From: Tetradesmus obliquus
Taxonomy: Eukaryota; Chlorophyta; Chlorophyceae; Sphaeropleales; Scenedesmaceae
Assembly (NCBI GenBank): GCA_030272155.1
Contig: CP126192.1
Location: 6,978,501-7,042,500 of the forward strand
DNA length: 64,000 nucleotides
Direction of reading: 5' to 3'
Below are positions 21,539 through 48,800 of this stretch, in pieces. Within the stretch, counting starts at the first letter, position 1, and every line of letters begins with the position of its first letter. The position numbers and the translations under genes are program-made. The notes under the pieces are model-generated. The model made no database searches. It was not told where the DNA came from and saw only the letters and a list, made by a program, of their open reading frames with translations.

Positions 21539-23535
21539 ATGTTTTGTGCTGCTGCAGTGCTCCTGTTGCTGCTGGTTGCTGTGTGCGTGACTGTTCCTGC
21601 AAGCGGCCAGCTGCCGCAGATATGGCCACTGGATGTGACGCTCACAGCCGAACGAATTGGCGACAAAGCAGCTGGGGCTGTGACTGTCATCAACCCCACC
21701 AAAGACCAGTTGAGGTGAGCAGGCACACTGAGGTGCCAAGAAACAGCATCACTGCACCAAGCCTGGGAATGCCGCGCGTGGCCCTACACGTTGTCAGCAC
21801 ATGCCGTTCCTGCAAGCAGCATGATGCTGCGCGAGCTTCTGCCACAGCAAGGGTGCCAAAATGCTGGCTTCTCAGATGTCTGCTTTGTAGCCGCACCAAT
21901 GGCAGATGACAGCTGCTGTGATTGATGTGTCCTGCAAAGTTCATGCTGCCCTGTTTGTGCTGGCGTGGTGTATGCTGTGCTGTTTGCCGAGCCTGCATCT
22001 GCCTGCACTGCTACAGCGTTGTGAATTTGCCTGCGTGTTTGCCTGATTTTGCTGCCCGCTAGGTTGGCAAGGTCATATTCAAGGTTCTTTTCTTTGATGA
22101 ACAACGAGTGCAGAAGGATGACATCAGGCAGAACTTGGTGGTGCACGAGTGTGGAGCCACCAAGCTGCCTGCCACGCTCGCACAAGGCGATGAATTCGTG
22201 TGGTAAGCACATGTGGTGCAGGTTAACGAGCCTAACCTGGCAGCTAGCACCGTTTTAATTGACATACTTCGGATAGGTGCCGCATGGCGCAGCAGCGCAG
22301 CTGATGACTGCTGCTGTCATGCATGCCAACATGAGTGCCTAGCTTCGGCAGCAGGGGTTGAATATCTGCTGAACAGGATGCAAACATTGCACAATGTCTG
22401 GTAATCAGCAGCTGCAGATGCTGTTTGGGCTGCCATGCTGCACAGCTGGTCAAGTTGGGGTGTCAGCAACCAGAGGCATGGCTGCTTACGCATCAATCTT
22501 ACAGCAAGCAGCAGGTGCACCTCCACTTTGGGTGCAACTCAACATGCCTGCACAGCTGCATCTGCGTCTCGTGCTTTGCTTTTTATAGAGTGTCTGTTGC
22601 TCAACACTTTGTGTGTCAACATGCCTGCCTACCTGCCCGCTGACCTGTCTTTCCCTCTCCTGCAGCCCGTTCACAACCGCTGACAACGTCTATCATGGGG
22701 CCATCCAGATCACTGCTGGCGCTGTGCGCGAAACTGACCCAGATGACAGCTTCAGTGGCGATGTTCTGGGGATGGACATGATCGACTGGCTCACTCCTGC
22801 AGGAAGCAGTGATGTCGGAGGCACCGCCACTATTGCTAGCAGCACCAACACTGGCGGCGCTGGCAGCAGCAGTGATGCAGCGCCTGGCTTCACTGCAGTT
22901 GCGGAATCCAACATCCCAGGTGCGACTGCCCGTCCGATTTAATGCGGATATTTTGCAGGGAATGGCAGGTGCACCAAAGTGAAGAGACAGCTGTTGTGGT
23001 GGCTGCAGAATACACCTCGTGTGCATGTGTGCACCCCAACTGCCTGCTGCAGGCCCTAGTGCATGGACATGCCTCAGATCACAACAGCAGTACGCACTCA
23101 TGTGCTGGGCAATGCTTGTTGTTTGAAACCTCCACATGCACACACCGAGTTCGCCGCAATAGCTGCACCTCCTGCACATGAATTCATGTATGTTCAGCAC
23201 TCACCACGCACCTGCTCTGCCACATGCTGCTCCTGCAGACCACGACATCGCCTGCGGTCAAGTTGACTTTCAAGGCCAGCCGACGGCGTTCTGCCGCATC
23301 TGCAACGGCATCGCTGCCGTGTATAACGCCTGCAACCAGCAGCCTGACTGTGTTGCATTCGACATGGAGGGCACTGACTGCGGCTACCTGAAGTCATCTG
23401 CGGGCCCCTTCAAGCAGCCCGCGCCAGGCTTCACCAGCTACGTGAGGGCATCACCTGCAGGAGGCGCGCATGCCGGCGGTAGCAGCAGTGATGCTGCACC
23501 TGGCGTCACGGCAAACGCAGAGTCCAACATCCCAG
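21539..23535 (+). CDS. Secreted PAN/apple-like protein (paralogue 2), with a phase conflict at its first junction
   Basis: Exons seen are 21539-21714, 22063-22202, 22666-22919 and 23239-23535. The start MFCAAAVLLLLLVAVCV is a signal peptide. Blocks match paralogue 1 in order: a WPLDVTLTAERI...VINPTK segment, KVIFKVLFFDEQ, an exon starting PFTT after a TG|C split codon, and a Cys-rich exon (DIACGQVD, FCRICNG, CNQQPDCVAF, DCGYLKS). The Pro/Ala/Lys region is absent. The motif AESNIPG sits at two exon ends, each followed by a GTGCGA donor. The best donor after exon 1 (GAG|GTGAGC) leaves phase 2, whereas the acceptor before exon 2 needs phase 0, so the gene is either broken by one base or uses an unusual donor. 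The 3' end is unresolved: a phase-compatible last exon could run 24417-24691, or a very short one begin at 23979. Confidence 0.6.
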
Positions 23536-24695
23536 GTGCGAGCGCCTGTCTGATTCCATGCATGTTTTACGGCAGTCGCTGCTAGCCAAGCAGCATGTAC
23601 CTTCATGATGAAGGGAACTTATTGTAGAGGGAATTATTCATTGTGGCTGTAGTGGCTTGTTGCCGTGGCTGTAGAGCACACCCCGTGCACATGCACGTGT
23701 ACATGCGTCCTAACTGCATATGGCAGGCAGTGCTCATGCACATGTGACTCAACCAGCCACAAACGTCCAGACACATGCTGCTGCGCACTGCTCATCGAGA
23801 GTGCAGCAAGTGAAGTGCACGCTGGTTGAGGTGCGTTGAAGTCATGGGAATGGTTTTGTGATGGTGTGCACGGTGCACATGTGCAGACTTGTGCACCTTG
23901 GGCTTGGCTTGCGCTCCAACCAAGCAGCATTTTGTGAGCAGGGCAGGCATATCAAGACAAATCACATACAATTCACAGAGACAGACCCGAAGTGGTGATC
24001 TCCTGCGATCATCAGCAGCTTCGAGTGTTCTCTCCGATTGTCACTCAAGCTGGTGACACCTCCTTACGCGCATCTTCTTGCCACGGGGGCCATGCGTACA
24101 ACCAAAAACGAGGTACAAATGGTTTATTCTATAAATATGTTGCGATTTGGGACGAGCATCTGCCGCTCTTGCTTGAACGCACACGAAGGCAGTCTGCGTT
24201 CGTTGTGAGGCGACCCCAGCAGGGCTGTGGTGCTTCCAACCGACGAATACAATATTTAGATACTTCAAAAGGCCCGGTCGTAGAAGCAATTGCCAGGCAG
24301 GACCACAAAGGTGCGTACCTTGCCAGTCCGTGCGCCACGACTATTTGAGCAGTGGCGTGCACCTCAGCATGTGCCTTTCTGAGTATCATCTTGACGTGTC
24401 ATGTGATGTTGTTTAGGAAACCGGCAAAAGCCACAGCCACACCAAAGTATCAAGTTCACCAGCAGGGGCAGCAGCAGCAGCAGCAGCGGCAGCAGCAGCA
24501 GCGGCAGCAGCACTGCTTTCCAGATTCAAGTGAAGCTTGGCGCCCAAGCATGCTGCCATGTAAAAACAAGTAAAGCAGCACCTGGCACCTGCATTTTAGT
24601 AGCTTGCATGTTGTCAGGCATGTACAACACGCCCTGGGCATGTTCAACTGGACGGGCTGCTGCTGAAGCCTGCAGGTGGGCTCTCGTGTGATCAC
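23536..24695. other. Unresolved 3' end of PAN paralogue 2 and promoter region of the hydrolase
   Basis: This contains a TATAAATA at 24130-24137, a donor-like CACAAAG|GTGCGT at 24310/24311 and an acceptor-like GTTTAG before 24417 followed by an 85-codon Ser-rich open frame. Whether that frame ends the PAN paralogue or is non-coding leader cannot be told from sequence alone. Confidence 0.4.
24130..24137 (+). promoter_or_regulatory. TATA box candidate for the hydrolase gene
   Basis: TATAAATA in an AT-rich stretch. With a 5' UTR exon ending at the donor 24310 and an acceptor at 24835/24836, translation could begin at the ATG at 24846 rather than at 24696. Confidence 0.35.
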
Positions 24696-27600: not shown

Positions 27601-30600
27601 GCCTGCTGCAGGATGACAGGGAGAGGGCAGCTGAAGCAGGGCCCAAGCTGGCGCACCTGCTGCTGGACCTGGCGGCCAAGGTGACGCGCTGATTGCTGAC
27701 TGCTGACTGCGCAGGCATGCTGGTGCTGTTGACCATGTGAAGCTTGCTTATGATTGGGTGTTTGCTGCACAGCGCATGCGTAGGCTGTTTATGATCGTGT
27801 TGTGGCATTTGACTATCACCAGCAGCTTCTAGTATGGTGTCACCTGCTGACACCGGCAGCTGCGAGGCTGCTGACGTGCAGGTGGCGCGCCCCCACAGCA
27901 GCAGCTGTTTTGCCGCTGCTCGCAGCTCACGTTGTATTCTGCACATGCTGCCCTGTTCCTGCCTTGCTGCTGCGCACCAGATGAAGGAGCTTGAGCTTGA
28001 GGGTGCCCCCTGCAACGGCATCCACCTGGTGGCACACAGCATGGGCAACTACGTCACACACTACGCCAGTGAGTGCAAGTTACATTGGTTTGCACAGCAT
28101 CATATGCAGCTGCTAGCACAGCATGGGCAGCTGCATCACACACTGGCGCCAGTGAGAGCAGTTGAATGTGCATTGACAACCAATGCAGACGACCTCACTG
28201 TGTGCAGCATTGCCGCATGAGCCATGCACTGCCAACTGAAGAGCTGGTTTGCAATCTGTGTGTGGATGACCACCCCTCAAATGCCATCTCCTCACATGTG
28301 CGCTGCATCTCCTGTGTGCAGAAACATGCAAGGCAGGCAGTTATATTGGAGATGTCTAAGGCACCACGGTCCTTGTAACTTTGCCATGTGGTGCACCACT
28401 CTTGCTGTCTAATATGGTATGCTTGTGTTGTGCCGCGCAGTTGAGCACCTTGGTAACAAGCCAGACTGTGCAGACAACCCCAACACAGCAGCAGCGGCAG
28501 CAGCAGCAGCAGCAGCAGCAAGGAGGGCACCAGACATGGTGACAGAGCTTAGCCTATCGCCGACATCCTCAGCAGCAGCAGGCGGCTGCTACACAAGCCC
28601 TGAGCTGCTGCCACCTCTGGCAACTGTCAGGGAAGAATCAGGATCGCTCAGCAGTAGCATGAAAGAGGCAGCGTCTGCTGCAGATGCAGCGGCACCTCCA
28701 GCTATACCAGAGGAGCCAGACGCAGCAGATACCTCTGCAGGAAACCAGGCTTGCATCTCGCAGTTTGATGACTCAGCAGGGGAGCTGCAGCCCTGCTCTG
28801 ACCGCCCCCACTCATTCATTGCGAGCCCCTTTGCACACCCGCACCACAACTGCAGCTCCCTGCTCCACACACCAGCAGCGTCACCACCACCACCATCGCC
28901 CGCAGCTGCAGCTGGCAGCAGCAGCAGCAGCAGCAGCAGCAATGTACCAAACGCACCAAAGGCTGGCGTGCTGCTCGTGCCGCACCAGCAGTTCCGCAGC
29001 TTTGCAGTGGCTGAGTCTGAGCCGAGTGATGGAGCCAAGCGGCTGGCGCTGTATGACAGTAGCCAGGTGGTGCTGGTGCACACGCAGTGCCTCATGCGTA
29101 GCAGGGAGGCGCAGCACCTGGTGAGACAGCAGGCGGGCAGGACGACAACTGCTTTTTTTGTATATGCATGCTGCAGCAGGAGATCTGCTTGGTGCATGAT
29201 GTGGTTCATTTTGCTGCTGGCACTGGCGCAACCGCAAGGCGCAACAGTGCTGACCAGACCTGTTGCCGCTGGCATCAGCACAGCGACGAGACGCACTAGT
29301 GCAGACTGGTGTGATGGGTGCATGAGCGGCAGATGCCCTCAGGACAGGGTGGTGGTATGTAAGCCACCCATCATTGCTGCAGGCAGCTGCTACCTACGAC
29401 ATGCAGGAGGCAGTTAGAAACCAGCCAGCACAATACCAGCTCTCCAGCTGCTGGTGTGGCTTGAACCTCTTCCATGCTACTGCCCCTGCTGGTGTTTGGC
29501 TGCTGCAGATGCAGCTGACCAAGACGATCATCCTGGCGGCTGCTGACGTGTCGCGCCACGACCTGGTCAAGACGGTGCGCCAGGTCAAGGTGGGAGCAGC
29601 CATGCACGGCACGGCCATGCCGCACATCACGCTCTACTGCAGCAGGCGCGACCAGGCGCTGGCGGTCAGCAGCGTGCTGCGGCTGCTGGGGCTCAAGGTG
29701 AGGGCTTGATGAGGTGTTATAACATGACAAATTGTCACATGGCATGGCTTTGACTGACTGCTTGACCAGCTGCTACAGTCAGTAGAGTGCTGCGGCTGCT
29801 GGGGCTCAAGGTGAGGGCTGTGTGACGTGTTACAACACAACGCAATATACAAATGATATCAACTCACTGCTTGACCAGCTGCTACAGTCAGCAGCGTGCT
29901 GCGGCTGCTGGGGCTCAAGGTGAGGGCTGCCTAAAGTATTATATCAAGAAGTAACAGTAACATAACATAACATGCAGTTGGTTTCAGTGCAGTACACTGT
30001 AGGGTGTGGGGCGCGGCTTCAGGCTGCAGTGCCTTTTGGATGTGGACGGTACTTGCTGGTGATATCTTCATGTTGTCACGTACACCGTTGCTACTGCTGC
30101 TGCCGCCGCCGCCGCCGCTGCCGCTGCTTCTGCTGCTGCTGCAGCGCACTGACGGGCGCGCGGGCTTCTTCCTGCGCAAGCCTCGCTGGTGTGAGGGCCA
30201 CCTGTTCCACCCCTTCCTCTTCAACAATGTCACCAGCGTGGACTGCACAGGTGAGGGTCATGCCAGGCTCGTACTCATGTAGCCACTGCACTGCTGCATG
30301 ATTTCTTCTGTTTCAATGACGTCACCAGCGTGGACTGCACCAGTGAGTCCACCTTGGAGACGAGTTTATCCTGCATGGTGCTCGTTGACGACTGTGTCTC
30401 TACTGTACTTGCTGCTGTGGCGGCTGCCTTTTGTGCTGGCTTCGCCGCTGTTATGACGTCACCAGCGTGGACTGCATCGGTGAGGAGCATGCCATGCATC
30501 AAATCATGTTCGCCACTGCAGAGCTGCACAGCTGCACTCCGGCGGCGGCTGCACTGCTGCGGCGGCCGCCGTGCTGCAGCGCACATATATACTGTTTGCT

Positions 30601-31272
30601 TCAGCGCCGTGCTACTGTAGGGCACACCAGCCGCCGAACTTTTCCTGCAAGCCGTTTCCTGCAAACAACTTCCTGCAAAAACGTTGCCTGCAGGCTTCTC
30701 CGCGGACTGGCTAGGCCATGGCTGCTTCCAGGAGCACCGCCAGGTGCTCACTTCTTCCTGCAAACACTTTCCTGCAAATGTGGTTTCCTGCAGGCTACTC
30801 CGTGGACTGGCTAAGCCATGGCTACTTCCCGGAGCACCGCCAGGTGCTCACCTCTTCCTGCAAACACTTTCCTGCAAACGGGTTTCCTGCAGGCTTCTCC
30901 GCGGACTGGCTGGGCCACGGCTACTTCCGGGAGCACCGCCAGGTGCTCACAGACATGAGCCAGGCCTTTGCAGGCATCACCAGCACCAAGCTGCGCACAG
31001 CAATCAAGGCCGCAAAAGACGGCGAGCATTGGAAGTGCATGGCCTGCAATGATGTTGTGATCCAAAACAAGAACATCGAGTTATACACGGTCATGAGTGT
31101 GGAGGAGCAGCACGCGCAGCAGCTGCAGCAGCTGCGGCGGCAGATGCTCGCGCAGCGCGAGACGCTGCAGCAGCTGGCGGGGTGTGAGAGCCTGGCGCAG
31201 TGGCAGGCGCGGCAGGTGGCGGTGGCGGCGATGCAGCAGCTGGTCAGTCCTAGCCAGCGCATGCCGCTGTGA
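24696..31272 (+). CDS. DUF900-type alpha/beta hydrolase with a long low-complexity insert
   Basis: Eleven exons: 24696-25082, 25561-25707, 26120-26246, 26578-26711, 26963-27106, 27612-27680, 27981-28068, 28441-29120, 29509-29697, 30145-30250 and 30893-31272. All junctions agree in phase and give 816 residues. The N-terminal block VFYATERDY...RYGSALVRIPK, the oxyanion/strand motif VVFVHGYNVNFE (~247), the nucleophile elbow LVAHSMGNY (Ser ~356), ILAAADVSRHD (Asp ~605) and WLGHGYFREH (His ~699) are in the order of the bacterial DUF900 esterase-like family, usually about 350 residues. Exon 8 inserts 226 Ala/Ser/Pro-rich residues between nucleophile and acid. The C-terminus adds a Gln-rich helix after WKCMACND. 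Substrate unknown. The first 50 residues are uncertain (alternative ATG at 24846). Exon edges of exons 2, 9, 10 and 11 are duplicated in the introns and 3' flank. Confidence 0.88.
25440..25830 (+). repeat. Duplicated edges of hydrolase exon 2 on both sides
   Basis: Upstream, CTGCAG|CTGCACGAGCCAGGCCA at about 25440 copies the acceptor and first bases of exon 2 (CTGCAG|CTGCGTGAGCCTGGGC at 25555), then diverges. Downstream, CTGAAGCTGGAGGCGCAG|GT at about 25804 copies the end of exon 2 and its donor (25689-25710) with nine coding bases missing. Confidence 0.8.
29665..29935 (+). repeat. Three tandem copies of the end of hydrolase exon 9 with donor
   Basis: GTGCTGCGGCTGCTGGGGCTCAAG|GTGAGGGCT occurs at the true exon end (29697/29698) and again ending near 29811 and 29919. 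The two extra copies are preceded by GACCAGCTGCTACAGTCAG, which resembles an acceptor. Spacing is about 110 bases. Confidence 0.9.
30210..30490 (+). repeat. Three copies of the end of hydrolase exon 10 with donor
   Basis: GTCACCAGCGTGGACTGCA recurs at 30228, about 30324 and about 30460. The first and third copies are followed by an intact GTGAGG donor, the second by a shifted TGAGTCC. Adjacent intron words (CATGCCA, CGCCACTGCA) are copied as well. Confidence 0.88.
30680..30960 (+). repeat. Three tandem copies of the start of hydrolase exon 11 (catalytic-His segment)
   Basis: Acceptor TTGCCTGCAG or TTTCCTGCAG followed by about 55 coding bases begins at 30694, 30794 and 30893, periods 100 and 99. 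The peptides are ADWLGHGCFQEHRQVL, VDWLSHGYFPEHRQVL and ADWLGHGYFREHRQVL. Copies 2 and 3 share one open frame; copy 1 is out of frame with copy 2. Only copy 3 continues into the rest of the exon. Confidence 0.92.
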
Positions 31273-37780: not shown

Positions 37781-38630
37781 AAATGCGCTGTTGCTGCTGC
37801 TGCCATCGCAGCCACCACGCCGCCGCAGCTGCTGCCGCTGCTGCTACGCCAACACAGCCGCACAACAAACGCAACCACTGCCATTTTAGCAGTTATTGGC
37901 ATTGCCAACTGCATTCACAGTGCAGGCATTCACAGCAGGAGCGACTTGGGGGCGTAGATGCTGCGCAGCATGCCCGGCAGCAGCAAACCGTCACCAACCC
38001 TACACCAGTCAAACAGCTGTCAAACACCTCAATGCAGGCCCAGCTGCTCTCCTGCTGCTGCACCACTGCCACTGCCATCACCGCCGCCTCCGCTGCTGCC
38101 GCCGCTGCTGTGCCATCACTCCGTCACTACTGCACTTCAAGAATGAACCATTCCATCATTCACAGCAGTGGCGACTTGGAGGCATATATGCCGCGCAGGA
38201 TGTCGTAAGCAGCACCAGGGCACCACCCCCACACCAGTCACCCAGCAAGCAAGCCAGCAAGCACCCTTGAAAAACCAGATATCAAGCCGTTCAGGACATT
38301 CTCAGCAGTGGCGACTTGGAGGCGTAGATGCCGCGCAGGATGTCATGCAATAGCGCGCAGGCACCACCCTACAACAATAACAAGGCATTTGATAGCGCGC
38401 AGGCACCACCCCACAACAAGAACATCTTCACCGCAAGTGCGTCCATGCTGCTGCTGCCACCGCAGCCTCATATCTGCTGCTGCCGCTGCTGCACAATCAC
38501 AGCCTCCCTCCCAGCAACCACATATGGCGCAGCCACTGCACACAGCCATCACACCTGCTTCTACAGGATCTCAAATTCATCACAGCAGGGGCGACTTGGA
38601 GGCGTAGATGCCGCGCAGGATGTCGTGGCG
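37781..38630 (-). repeat. Four copies of the terminal coding end of the CBS gene
   Basis: The 3' end of the CBS gene (CAGCAGGGGCGACTTGGAGG and onward on the plus strand, 38580-38630) recurs at about 38301-38347, 38161-38205 and 37931-37975, all on the 3' side of the gene. A wider block with CACCGCAAATGCGC/CACCGCAAGTGCG and CTG tracts is also shared between about 37780 and 38430. Confidence 0.88.
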
Positions 38631-39056
38631 CGTGACGATGCCCACCACCTTGGAGCCAGCCTCCACCACAGGCAGCAGGTTCACCTGCAGACAGCAGCAG
38701 CAGTAGCAGCAGCGGCAGCAGAGGACGATCAGGCATCACGCAGGCTACATACACTGGTGGCGGGTGAAGCAGCGCTGCTAGCGTGATAGCCAACACACCA
38801 TAACGCAGGTAGTAGGTGCACGCAGTAGGGCTGCAGTAACAATGCAGCTGCCAAGAAGCTGCTTTTGTTTGGCATAACAAACAAAAGCTTTGATATGCCA
38901 AAAAGCTGCTTTTGTTTGCTATGCCAAGACACTGCTTGCACGAGTGATAGCTATCACCGCTCACGTCGTGGTGCAGCATGAGTTGTGCCGCCTCTGACAT
39001 GGCTGTTGAGGGTGCCACTGAGATGACCTTGTCCTTGCCAGACATGGCCTCAGCCA

Positions 39057-39098
<42 letters not shown>

Positions 39099-39163
39099 GA
39101 CAGACATGGCTGTGGAAGGGCCCACTGGGATGACCTTGTCCTTGCCCGACATGGCCTCAGCCA

Positions 39164-39231
<68 letters not shown>

Positions 39232-39327
39232 TGTCGGACATGGCAGTGGAGGGTGCCACTGAGGTGACCTTGTCCTTGCCCGACATGGCCTCAGCCACCT
39301 GGCGGCAGCAGCAGCAGCAGCAGCACC

Positions 39328-39359
<32 letters not shown>

Positions 39360-39705
39360 TGTCGGACATGGCAGTGGAGGGTGCCACTGAGGTGACCTTG
39401 TCCTTGCCCGACATGGCCTTAGCCACCTGGCAGCAGCAGCAGCAGCACCGGCAGCAGCAGCAGCAGCAGCAATGTCGGACATGGCAGTGGAGGGTGCCAC
39501 TGAGGTGACCTTGTCCTTGCCCGACATGGCCTCAGCCACCTGGCAGCAGCAGCAGCAGCAGCACCGGCAGCAGCAGCAGCAGCAGCAATGTCGGACATGG
39601 CAGTGGAGGGTGCCACTGAGGTGACCTTGTCCTTGCCAGACATGGCCTCAGCCACCTGGCAGCAGCAGCAGTAGCAGCAGCACCGGCAGCAGCAGCAGCA
39701 GCACC

Positions 39706-39746
<41 letters not shown>

Positions 39747-39961
39747 TGTCGGACATGGCAGTGGAGGGTGCCACTGAGGTGACCTTGTCCTTGCCCGACA
39801 TGGCCTCAGCCACCTGGCGGCAGCAGCAGCAGCAGCAGCACCGGCAGCAGCAGCAGCAGCAGCAGCAATGTCGGACATGGCAGTGGAGGGTGCCACTGAG
39901 GTGACCTTGTCCTTGCCCGACATGGCCTCAGCCACCTGGCAGCAGCAGCAGCAGCAGCACC

Positions 39962-39996
<35 letters not shown>

Positions 39997-40134
39997 TGTC
40001 GGACATGGCAGTGGAGGGTGCCACTGAGGTGACCTTGTCCTTGCCCGACATGGCCTCAGCCACCTGGCAGCAGCAGCAGTAGCAGCAGCACCGGCAGCAG
40101 CAGCAGCAGCACCGGCAGCAGCAGCAGCAGCACC

Positions 40135-40190
<56 letters not shown>

Positions 40191-40307
40191 TGTCGGACAT
40201 GGCAGTGGAGGGTGCCACTGAGGTGACCTTGTCCTTGCCCGACATGGCCTCAGCCACCTGGCAGCAGCAGCAGTAGCAGCAGCACCGGCAGCAGCAGCAG
40301 CAGCACC

Positions 40308-40348
<41 letters not shown>

Positions 40349-40783
40349 TGTCGGACATGGCAGTGGAGGGTGCCACTGAGGTGACCTTGTCCTTGCCCGA
40401 CATGGCCTCAGCCACCTGGCGGCAGCAGCAGCAGCAGCAGCACCGGCAGCAGCAGCAGCAGCAGCAGCAGCAATGTCAGACATGGCAGTGGAGGGTGCCA
40501 CTGAGGTGACCTTGTCCTTGCCCGACATGGCCTTAGCCACCTGGCAGCAGCAGCAGCAGCACCGGCAGCAGCAGCAGCAGCAGCAGCAGCAATGTCGGAC
40601 ATGGCAGTGGAGGGTGCCACTGAGGTGACCTTGTCCTTGCCCGACATGGCCTTAGCCACCTGGCAGCAGCAGCAGCAGCACCGGCAGCAGCAGCAGCAGC
40701 AGCAGCAGCAATGTCGGACATGGCAGTGGAGGGTGCCACTGAGGTGACCTTGTCCTTGCCCGACATGGCCTTAGCCACCTGGC

Positions 40784-40829
<46 letters not shown>

Positions 40830-41576
40830 TCAAGCCATGTGCGCCCTATGCTCAACTCAACCGTGCATTGTGCCACACGCTGCGCTGTGCTGCACTGCAG
40901 TGTGCCTGCAAGGGCACATTGCCCCTAGTGCGCCTGTCCGTGCGCGCCAGGATCTTCTGCACCCCCTCCTCATCACAGCAACAGCACTAGCGAGCTACGT
41001 ACTGCGCTGCGTTGCCGCTAAACACAGCATATGTTGAGACCAGCTTAGGTCCACTGCCTACATGTACAATCAAACGCATGTAAACTCGCAGTCAACAGCT
41101 ACTTGGGCAGTCAGCAGCTCACCGTGCGCGCCAGGATCGTGTGCACCTCCTCCTCATCACGGCAACAGCACCTGAGGCTGTGGATCACGCTGCTTTGCCG
41201 CCCACCACAGCTACTTAGATACTGCTCACCGTGCGCGCCAGGATCTTGTGCACCTCCTCGTCGAAGCGCTTGTTGTCGCGCAGGTACACGTACGCGTCAG
41301 CAAAGCCGATGAACACGGGAGGGATGATGTAGTGGTCCTCAGGGGCGCCCGCACCCTGACGCAGCAGCAGCAGCAATAATTGGTGTTTACTATCATGTTG
41401 CGCACTGTGCACGCATCATGTGTTGCGATGAGTGTTGATGGGTGCGGCATGGGACGCTGCTGTGACAGACGTGTGATATGCTGGTGCGGTTAGCAGAGGC
41501 CGTGTGAGGAAACGAAATGCAGCGGCTGTGCAAGCGCAATGTGCTGCTACGGCCTCCTTATCGCCATGCTCGACTG

Positions 41577-41615
<39 letters not shown>

Positions 41616-41826
41616 TGCATCCTCATCTGGCAGAAGCCCCTTGCTGTTGCAACTGATTGAACGACATGTGTCAGCATATATGCTCAGTTGTTCTTGTTGC
41701 TGCTGCTGTTGCCGCACCTTCCAGATGACGTCCGCCTCTGTGAGCACTCCCACCAGGCACCCCTGGCCGTCCACCACTGGGGCCCCAGACACGTTGGCGT
41801 CAAGCATCTTGTGCACAGCGTCTCTG

Positions 41827-41867
<41 letters not shown>

Positions 41868-42504
41868 GCGGCGACAGCAGCAACATGTTGGGGTGACAGG
41901 CTGATAGAGCGCGGTGCTGCTGCAATCAGCAAGGCAGCAGGACATGAACACTGTGCATGCTGGCAAGGGCATGCATGGGTGATTTCCTGTCGTGCGCCAC
42001 ACTGCAGATCAACTGCAGCTGAACGTGCTGCTGAAGGTGAAAATGCATGAAGCCTTGACTAAGCAGCTGCGCAGGTTCAGCTCACTTGATGGGCATGCTG
42101 TCCTGCAGGATGACGGGGTGTGGGTTCATCACCTCCTCAACTGACACCTCTTGTGTTGCAGTGGGGCTTGCTGTGCGGCATCAGACATGTACATGGTATA
42201 CGTTGAACGGCAGGAACGAGCAGAGGTAGGCACGAGATGGAAACAACGGCAGGTAAGCCACTACAGCAGTTGCAGCAACAGCAGCAGATCACTGCCTGTC
42301 CAACCACTCACCATCTGCTGCACCGGCGACCGTGCGTCGTTGTGGCTGCCGACTAAAGTTGCATGCTGCATTGAGGGACCGCTGTGCGGGGCTGCTTGCG
42401 GTACGTGGGCCACGGCACTGGCCTCTCGAAACGGTCAGCACTTGCGTCCGTGATCTATCTGCGAACACCGCGCTGCAGCTGCCTGTCCTGCAAAGTAGAG
42501 CCAT
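38580..42504 (-). CDS. Two-CBS-domain protein with plastid-type leader
   Basis: Six minus-strand exons: 42504-42312, 42149-42086, 41823-41718, 41355-41230, 39057-38965 and 38684-38580; all junctions agree in phase, giving 228 residues. Residues 1-64 are rich in Ser/Arg/Ala with few acids, like a chloroplast transit peptide. CBS 1 (~66-121) reads VEEVMNPHPVILQD...SGAPVVDGQGCLVGVLTEADV; CBS 2 (~164-222) reads VAEAMSGKDKV...NLLPVVEAG...VGIVTRHDILRG. The insert between them (PPVFIGFADAYVYL, then a basic/acidic helix) resembles that of bacterial and cyanobacterial stand-alone CBS pairs, so a plastid origin is plausible. CBS pairs bind adenine nucleotides; plant plastid CBSX proteins regulate thioredoxins. 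The intron between exons 4 and 5 (about 2.2 kb) is filled with copies of exon edges. Confidence 0.88.
38861..38888. other. Hairpin in the last CBS intron
   Basis: GCTTTTGTTTG and CAAACAAAAGC form a perfect 11-base-pair stem with a 6-base loop. A second direct copy of AAGCTGCTTTTGTTTG follows at about 38905-38920, so the element is partly duplicated. Confidence 0.65.
38990..40828 (-). repeat. Array of 14 tandem copies of the CBS exon-5 start with CTG-tract acceptor
   Basis: The first ~66 coding bases of exon 5 (peptide VAEAMSGKDKVxSVAPSTAMS) preceded by CCAG and a CTG tract start at 39057 (true exon), 39164, 39298, 39426, 39539, 39655, 39813, 39935, 40063, 40257, 40415, 40540, 40659 and 40778. 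The twelve distal copies are nearly identical; the true exon and the 39164 copy are more diverged. Unit length is 107-194, varying through the CAG/CTG tracts, which carry a secondary CACCGG(CAG)n pattern. No copy contains a donor. Confidence 0.97.
40935..41270 (-). repeat. Three copies of the end of CBS exon 4 with donor
   Basis: The plus-strand sequence GTGCGCGCCAGGATCTTGTG (true exon end at 41230-41250) recurs near 41123 and 40940. The 41123 copy keeps the adjacent CTCACC (donor GGTGAG on the minus strand); the 40940 copy has lost it. Confidence 0.88.
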
Positions 42505-45809: not shown

Positions 45810-48800
45810 CAACAGCAGCCAGCGTTGTGCCGCATTTGTCCCCAGTTTACCGCCCGGTCACTGCACGCCTTCATGCCGTGCTGTCAGCCACGGCAGCTGG
45901 CATACCTCACCACCGCCCGCATGTTTGCAGAGGCATTCACCTGGTTGAACTTCATGCAAGTTGCACTGCCACAGCAGACATTGGCTGAACAATGTCGTAG
46001 TGTATGCACAACACAGCAGCTGCCGCACACCTGCCACAGCATATCCTCAGGGCTGGGTGCCGGCTGCACCTTGAAGGCCTCCAGGCTGTTGCTGCTCTGA
46101 GGGAATACGCTGCTGCGCGCCGCCAGTGTTGCTGCTGCAGGCGTCTTGAACAGCACGATGAAGGAGCCAGTGTCTGGGCCAGACAGCACCTGGCACCACA
46201 GCCACAGCAGACAAGTTTGCAAAAAATGCGTATGTGGACCGGCTTACAAAGATTAACACTAAAGCAGAATCTGGCATAGCAGTGTACACACTGGGGCCCA
46301 CCAGCACAAGTAAAATCAAATAGAACTGCATATATGTGGTCAAGCAAACCAGCAGCAGACTGTGCAGCACACGCCGCAAGCCAGCCAACACACCTCCTTC
46401 TGTGCTTCCAGTATGGATGCCTCCAGGTCCACCAGCGCCTGCCGCTGCACCTCCAGCCGCTCCGCAACACACCCCACGCCATCCCGCGCTGCCCCCTCCT
46501 CCTCCTCGGCACCCGGCCCACCAAACAGAGCACCAGCTAAGCCCGCACAGCAGCGGCCCATGGCTGTGCTGCCTTCCTCATCGTCTTTAGACACTAGCCG
46601 AGGCTTCAGGCCCTTTGAGATCTCATCAGGCAGCACAGGGCGAGGCTTCAGCGGAGCCAGCCGTGGCGTCCTGCAGCAGGGCTCGCCTGCTGCTACATCT
46701 GCAGCAGCAGCAGCTGGGGTGTCTGCTGCGGCAGCGCTGCTGCTGCCTGCAGCAGACAGGGATGCAGCGCTGCGCGGCTCACAGCTGCTGCCGCCTTCGC
46801 TTACTGAAGAGGTGCGCACACGCAAAGCATGTGCTGCAGCTGGCCGCCGCTGGGGAATGCTGCTGCCACTGATGCTGCTGGCCAGTGCTGCCTGAGGCAG
46901 ATGGCCCACTTCCAGATCTGCCCCTGAATTCGGCGGCTGCTCCTGCTGCTGATGCTGAATGTGTAGGTCACCAGATGCACCGCTGCTGCGCGTGCTGGTG
47001 CTGATGCAGCAGCCACCACCACAACCAGCACTGGCAGCAGCAGCAGCAGACCTAGCAGCCCGTTCCAGCCTCAGCTGCAGCAGCGCCCTGCCCTGTATGT
47101 AGGCCTGCAGATCTGCATTCCATTGCCGCAGCAGCTCATCCACAGCCTGGAAGTTCCTGACAGGAATCACAGCGTGAAGATCATCCTTGAACAGCTGCTT
47201 GAAGGTCTGCTCAACCAAGCGCTGCCTGTTGCTGATTTTTGCTAGCCTATTGGGGTGCAGCGGCGAGCCACGACCAGCCGCCTGCTGCTGCTGCTGCTGC
47301 TGCTGCCGGCCTGGCATGTGCAGCTGCTCCGCAGGCTGCAATGAGGCGCTTTGCTGCTGCTGCTGTTCTGCCGTCTCCTGCTGCTGGTGCTGCTGTATGA
47401 GCTGTCGCATGCTGTCGCTGAAGAGCATGCTCTTGCTGCTGCCCCCTTGCTGGTTGCTGTGCAGCGTCCTGAAGCTCTGCCTGTTCCATGAAGAGGCCCA
47501 GCCTAGGTCAGTGAGGTCTGCTTGGCGCAGCAGGCAGGGCCAGCTCCAGCTGCATGCACAAGCAGGCAAAAAGGCACATCCAGCAATTTGCATCAATCAT
47601 GTGCGTACACATGCTGTGTGCGAGCAGACGGTTGAGTACATGGCGCAGCCGTAGATACAATAAGCTTGCCAAGATGACAAATTGCTTCATGGCATGTCAT
47701 GCAAGAAAACACATCCAGCAGCTCAAATCACATATGTGCATACACATGCTGTGTGCACGTACACAGTGAAGTACATGGTGCAGCTCTAGTGCATTGTGCT
47801 TGCCAGGACGATGCAATGCTTCATGGTATGCATCACCCTCATTGTTCGCGCTAGCACAGCTGACTGCCTGTCAGGCACGGACTGGAGGTGTCACAGCCTG
47901 CACAACAAGCAACATGGCTTCAAATAGGGATGGTTGGGCAGCCATGACTGCTTCTCAATGCACTCACACGGCTGCTTGCAGCATACGCATCAGGATGGAG
48001 GGCCGTTGACGCCGGCTGACTTCTTCTTCGTCCTCTTCCTCCTCTGCCTCCTCACCTTCTCCTGGCACGTCTGTCACCAGCACTGCATAGTTGCTCACAT
48101 GCAGCGGCAAGATGCTGCCATGTGCATCCTGCACGTGGACTGCAGCCCACAGCAGACAGGGCAGCAGGTAAGCATTGCAGTACTGCAGTCGTGCCGCTCT
48201 GCTGGAAGATCAGCCCCAATCCACACCAATTGCTGCGCCAGAAACTGTGCAAGCAGTACTTGCATATGGCGTGCATAAGTAAGGCCCTAATGTGCATGTG
48301 GAATTTGTGCAAACATTATCAGGCACACAGCGGCAGGCGGGAACTGTCTACCGGCGTTTGATGCCTGCCGTTGTGCTCATTCTACTCACCTGTGTTGCGG
48401 AAGCGCACAGAGGGCTTGCGCGCCCTCAAGCTGCGGCGGTCAAACAGCAGCGACGTGCCAGGCACTGCTGTGATGTTCGATAGCTGCTCAAGGTCAGCAG
48501 TGCTCCTGGTGCGCCTGGTGCCGCAGTGCAGCTCACTGAGAGCCACAGCCACGCCAGCAGCCTGAGGATCACTGCTGCTGTTGCTGCTGCTGACTGTTGC
48601 TGCAGCAGCTGTCTCTGCAAGTGCGGCAGCTGCTGCTGTTGCTGCTGCTACTGCGACTGGATCGCTGCTGTCAGCGGCGTCTGGTGGTGCAAGCTCCCAC
48701 CACCGCTGCAGCCGCTTGCAGTCGTCGCCTGAACAGCAGCAGCACATGTGCGTCGCTGTCCGCAGCAGCAACAAACCCCATGCAACAGCCGTACTGCACT

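Follow-up and report, generated by a model that had tools for sequence, protein, structure and literature searches.

A CBSX-like gene with one long intron

Why does the fourth intron of a CBS-domain gene of Tetradesmus obliquus carry thirteen extra copies of the start of the following exon, and what do they imply for the splicing of this gene? The gene lies on the - strand of the window, i.e. the whole stretch of 64,000 nucleotides analysed here, at 38580..42504 (coordinates are those of the window unless stated otherwise). Its six coding exons (42504-42312, 42170-42086, 41823-41718, 41355-41230, 39057-38965 and 38684-38580) form an open joined frame and are separated by GT-AG introns, the splice sites being predicted from the sequence. 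Intron 4 (39058..41229, - strand) is 2172 nt long, against 141-362 nt for the remaining introns.

The joined exons encode a predicted protein of 235 aa in which Pfam recognises two CBS stretches. Its best PDB match is the archaeal protein MJ1225 (E=4.4e-21), and archaeal CBS proteins outscore the Arabidopsis relatives CBSX2 (E=9.9e-13) and CBSX1 (E=4e-12). The small size, the pair of CBS domains and the similarity to CBSX1/2, which are not the top PDB matches, identify a CBSX-like protein. The label “CBS” of the initial annotation thus stands for CBS-domain protein and not for cystathionine beta-synthase. When the genome was searched with this protein, the eight matches listed all fell inside its own gene.

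Anatomy of the intron 4 array

The extra copies, numbered 2 to 14, occupy 39058..40828 on the - strand; copy 1 is the intact exon 5 (38965..39057), the sole copy that has a good donor (GAC|GTGAGC) behind it. Each unit consists of a CTG tract, a CAG acceptor and the first ~62 nt of exon 5. With the real exon-5 start included, the - strand contains 14 matches to CAG|GTGGCT[A/G]AGGCCATGTC, and CAG|GTGGCT is intact at every one of them. The first exon-like base lies at 40778, 40659, 40540, 40415, 40257, 40063 and 39935 in the distal seven matches and at 39813, 39655, 39539, 39426, 39298, 39164 and 39057 in the proximal seven, so that the copies and positions initially annotated are recovered. Tandem Repeats Finder rows cover 38996-40828. 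A whole-genome DNA search with the unit gave at least 14 matches, and all those listed were within the array. With 14 head-to-tail units spaced by 107-194 nt, i.e. by tens to hundreds of bases, the array has the structure of a minisatellite and may be a VNTR.

The spacings between copies (107, 134, 128, 113, 116, 158, 122, 128, 194, 158, 125, 119 and 119) are exactly those first reported, and all 13 equal 2 modulo 3. The 62-nt cores contain zero indels. Length differs by a number divisible by 3 in all 13 cases, and always within the CTG spacer, in agreement with the CTG-triplet origin that had been proposed for them. Since the array changes length only by triplets, its spacing is constant modulo 3; we therefore rejected this constancy as a signal, as it is a mere consequence of triplet change. 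In other exon-edge series tabulated from the genome the residues are mixed in six of eight cases and constant in two.

Any two of copies 3-14 have at most 2 mismatches over the 62 positions, and each has 3-5 against the real exon 5, which bears out the near-identity noted earlier for the distal copies. Copy 2 shows 6-7 differences in the core from every other copy. The 13 spacers represent 11 distinct sequences, one being common to units 14 and 13 and another to units 11 and 7, as would be expected after unequal exchange or conversion. The joints of the units resemble, from a common CATG onward, the native intron preceding the outermost tract. This CATG may be a microhomology breakpoint, for which it is weak evidence because much of the alignment consists of CTG tract.

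Exon 5 is not the only exon of the gene with duplicated edges. Two partial copies of the 3' edge of exon 4 lie within intron 4 (40939..41160, - strand), their first intron-like base being at 41122, where GT is kept, and at 40938, where it is lost. Downstream of the gene (37927..38347, - strand; series region 37927-38627), sequence and alignments show that the terminal exon has its end repeated in part three times, and the TGA is still present in two of the three copies. A separate feature, spotted by eye, is a near-perfect inverted repeat in intron 5 (38870-38940) around CAAACAAAAGC / GCTTTTGTTTG, which could form a hairpin.

Modelled outcome of upstream acceptor use

To each of the 14 acceptors corresponds a modelled transcript, and only acceptor 1 (39057) gives the native protein. 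Entry at any of the 13 upstream acceptors shifts the frame and leads to a stop 67-119 codons past exon 4: in the array for 11 of them, in exon 5 for acceptor 3 and at the start of exon 6 for acceptor 2. The frame change and early stop put forward in the initial annotation are thus found in all the modelled transcripts. The “truncated” protein that it deduced is not: the mis-spliced products would have 237-289 aa, i.e. not fewer than the native 235 aa. What they lack is the latter half of the second CBS domain in its native form.

Exon-edge copies across the genome

To place the array among other loci, exons were anchored on conserved domains. The first set comprised the best 30 matches of each of Pkinase and DEAD (60 anchors), and local copies were searched for at each locus in flanks of 1500 nt after masking CAG-type tracts. 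Exon-edge copies were present at 14 of these 60 anchors. This count leaves out a fifteenth locus with a match (L073; 64% identity, 1157 nt away) and keeps the seven anchors of the 60 that have stops inside the match. Its least certain positives are L066 and L074, the latter sitting in an open frame of 837 aa. A second set of 21 Ras and AAA anchors gave 6 positives, corrected to 5 of 20 because the second anchor of L081 is itself a decoy copy and was dropped. Both sets pooled, 19 of 80 anchored exons have local partial copies of their edges (Wilson interval 16-34%, taking the anchors as independent, while several belong to one gene, as L061 and L071 do, and other loci overlap). In controls, similar copies appeared in 2 of 300 cross-family mispairs and in 1 of 60 loci compared with their own inverted sequence. 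The cross-family mispairs were substituted for same-family ones (43/300), which were set aside on account of the homology within families and of the overlap between some loci. The initial annotation had missed this wider pattern as well as the two donor-edge copies of exon 4 and the three terminal-exon copies.

In the first set, by hand count, 50 of 52 matches have the order 5'-half upstream or 3'-half downstream; L052 and L073 contain one exception each. Tandem duplication across a splice junction places 5' edges upstream and 3' edges downstream automatically. The intron-4 array is the largest series seen; the next largest, original included and within the 1500-nt flanks, have 9 copies (L061) and 8 copies (L074). 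L061 is a DEAD-box exon (contig C15 of genome G000, 738715-738903) whose 5' edge has eight copies upstream and whose 3' edge has three downstream; AG is kept in 6 of the 8 acceptor copies and GT in all 3 donor copies.

We also considered a duplication hotspot at exon edges. Duplicated coverage is 0.09-0.18 near the match ends, HMM match ends being only approximate exon ends, and 0.11-0.24 in flanks 100-600 nt away. Coverage at the edges is thus no higher than in the neighbouring introns, which speaks against an edge-specific process, and the hotspot is not supported. Altogether 73 repeat families occur across 33 of the 60 loci, and 15 of them touch the anchored match.

The window itself holds three more exon-edge series on the + strand (29650-29968, 30182-30528 and 30656-30950), the repeated part being an exon end and donor in two of them and an acceptor and exon start in the third. 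Two other similarities were noted in passing. The segments 22862-22954 and 23478-23568 are ~80% alike, 616 nt apart, and each ends at AACATCCCAG|GTGCGA; this is possibly a real exon duplication. At 47549-47830 two tandem copies ~135 nt apart are 73% alike, without an obvious open frame.

Retention of splice dinucleotides in the copies

Among the copies with a clear site, AG or GT is retained in 60 of 67, for 53.2 expected from the identity of the adjoining exon part. Donor copies are close to expectation (GT in 27/32, expected 25.5) and acceptor copies slightly above the neutral expectation (AG in 33/35, expected 27.7); with the intron-4 array removed, retention is 47/54 (expected 41.7). These counts leave out L066 and the 5' edge of L022, where the exact splice site is ambiguous, and the Ras/AAA positives L080, L081, L082, L083 and L086. 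We leave the small excess uninterpreted because the copies share descent. Edge-copy decoys are thus neither purged nor clearly preserved.

How the intact exon may be selected

A duplicated 5' edge provides an acceptor without a good donor, so only the intact exon is recognisable across the exon. Leaving aside the junction with the next copy, the top-scoring GT of the 13 decoy units reaches 1.7-4.1 as a donor; that junction (CAG|GTGGCT) scores 5.8. The exon-5 donor scores 9.3; it is one of the 18 training donors, which range from 6.0 to 13.3. Exon 5 would presumably be chosen because it is the sole copy with a good donor.

Two other features were examined. An RNA structure hiding the decoys was rejected, since the unpaired probability is 0.27-0.40 at the decoys and 0.35 at the real site, i.e. 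no different. The decoys may have lost their branch points: a YTNAY motif after the last upstream AG is absent in 11 of 13 of them; it is also absent, in the last 80 nt, from 3 of 11 acceptors taken as real, that of exon 5 included.

In the accessible text of PMC4378016, intron definition is argued for Volvox and Chlamydomonas. Under intron definition the nearer decoys should win, and the edge-copy pattern of the alga is hard to square with it. Both intron retention and exon skipping are described for one gene of Scenedesmus acutus in the available part of PMC12899622, which suggests that both modes of recognition may operate in the family.

Origin of the array

We consider it fairly probable that the array is a tandem repeat derived from an exon edge and under little or no selection, tolerated through an exon-definition-like choice of the intact exon. 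A local duplication across the junction of intron 4 and exon 5 would have founded it, slippage or unequal exchange through the CTG tracts would have added further copies, and the distal units would later have been homogenised. The same type of duplication would cross splice junctions throughout the genome. Exon-wide recognition, or a rule with the same effect, would then select the exon in which an acceptor and a good donor occur together, making copy 1 the acceptor that is probably used. That an exon edge had seeded a neutral satellite was one of the options of the initial annotation: the edge copies in the same gene and at 19 of 80 sampled exons favour it, and its neutrality is what we infer from them. 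Several observations count against this explanation. The next-copy junction scores only just below the weakest training donor (5.8 vs 6.0), and whole-unit cryptic exons are possible; to these are added the membership of the exon-5 donor in the training set, the intron definition argued for Volvox and Chlamydomonas and the AG retention (33/35 vs 27.7 expected).

The other option raised initially was an array of splice decoys, in which upstream acceptors would be used at a regulated fraction, with a frame shift and less CBSX as the result. CAG|GT is indeed kept at all 13 upstream acceptors, and each of the 13 modelled transcripts has a stop ahead of the normal one. But an early stop is the expected outcome of a unit length of 2 modulo 3, and similar arrays stand beside many unrelated exons, which makes such a function rather unlikely.

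We give still less credence to recursive splicing, in which each CAG|GT would serve as acceptor and then as donor, the long intron being removed stepwise. The juxtaposition of AG and GT in 14 of 14 copies, and also in the series of L074, is what this would need. Yet CAG|GTGGCT scores just under all 18 training donors, and in other arrays, such as those of L061, L056 and L071, the AG is not followed by GT, so the process would not be general. Equally small is the chance that the array is an assembly artefact, or that its copy number is inflated: CTG-rich arrays are hard to assemble, but 13 spacers with 11 distinct sequences and the diverged exon-edge copies of many other genes argue for a real structure. 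Finally, it is scarcely credible that a longer isoform uses the units as coding exons: in translation their cores match the beginning of exon 5, but the spacing of 2 modulo 3 breaks the frame at every unit and a stop is met from all 13 entries.

Relation to known duplicated splice sites

Duplicated exon-intron junctions are already known in single genes (PMC2630376, PMC2812944, PMC4974935). In human CBS, the 844ins68 variant is a tandem duplicate of an intron tail and exon start; according to the accessible text of PMC2630376, splicing strongly favours the more distal site, so that the upstream copy is removed and a normal mRNA results. The sites are called “donor” there, while the title of the cited Romano et al. 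2002 has 3' splice site. The algal array has the same organisation, with intron tail, acceptor and exon start repeated in direct tandem beside the intact exon 5. But 844ins68 is one extra copy, a human polymorphism tested at the RNA level, whereas the algal array has 13 extra copies with CTG tracts and is known from sequence. The proteins also differ, the two genes having the name CBS alone in common, and many other algal genes are affected.

A 31-bp VNTR of human CBS was reported by Lievers et al. in 2001. Located at exon 13/intron 13, this VNTR shares with the algal array many tandem copies at an exon-intron boundary, and differs by its short unit and its position on the donor side.

Internal tandem repeats at exon-intron boundaries of human segmental duplications can change splicing, as reported in the available part of PMC2812944. 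They are, like the algal array, tandem repeats at such boundaries; their units average 30 bp in ~4 copies, with transcript support, in recently duplicated primate genes. In potato, a case of intron gain by a duplicated exon-intron junction is described in the accessible part of PMC4974935. Both it and the array are local tandem duplications carrying splice signals, and AGGT occurs at each algal unit; but the potato case is a gain, whereas in the alga an existing intron is lengthened. Intron gain at AGGT after the model of Rogers was rejected for the array, the copies sitting in an existing intron and beginning at its acceptor. Within the open-licence literature, including the accessible portions of PMC12571836, PMC7590803 and PMC7955037, we found no description of exon-edge arrays occurring throughout the genome in T. 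obliquus or its relatives.

The intron-4 array is thus an extreme case of a widespread trait of this genome, most likely neutral tandem duplication. Artificially duplicated sites are often used to study how splice sites are chosen; if the sampled share of 19 in 80 is representative, the genome holds very many natural experiments of this kind, among which the 14-copy array of intron 4 is extreme. With them, ordinary RNA sequencing could test whether green algae rely on exon or intron definition. Gene models and short-read mapping may err at exon edges of the T. obliquus genome. Rather tentatively, we suggest that many exons may be flanked by copies of their own edges with intact sites, near-identical decoys that the spliceosome would have to ignore routinely. 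If this is true, it would point to a genome-wide reservoir of latent splice variants and to recognition of the exon-definition type in this lineage of green algae, although intron definition is assumed for its better-studied relatives.
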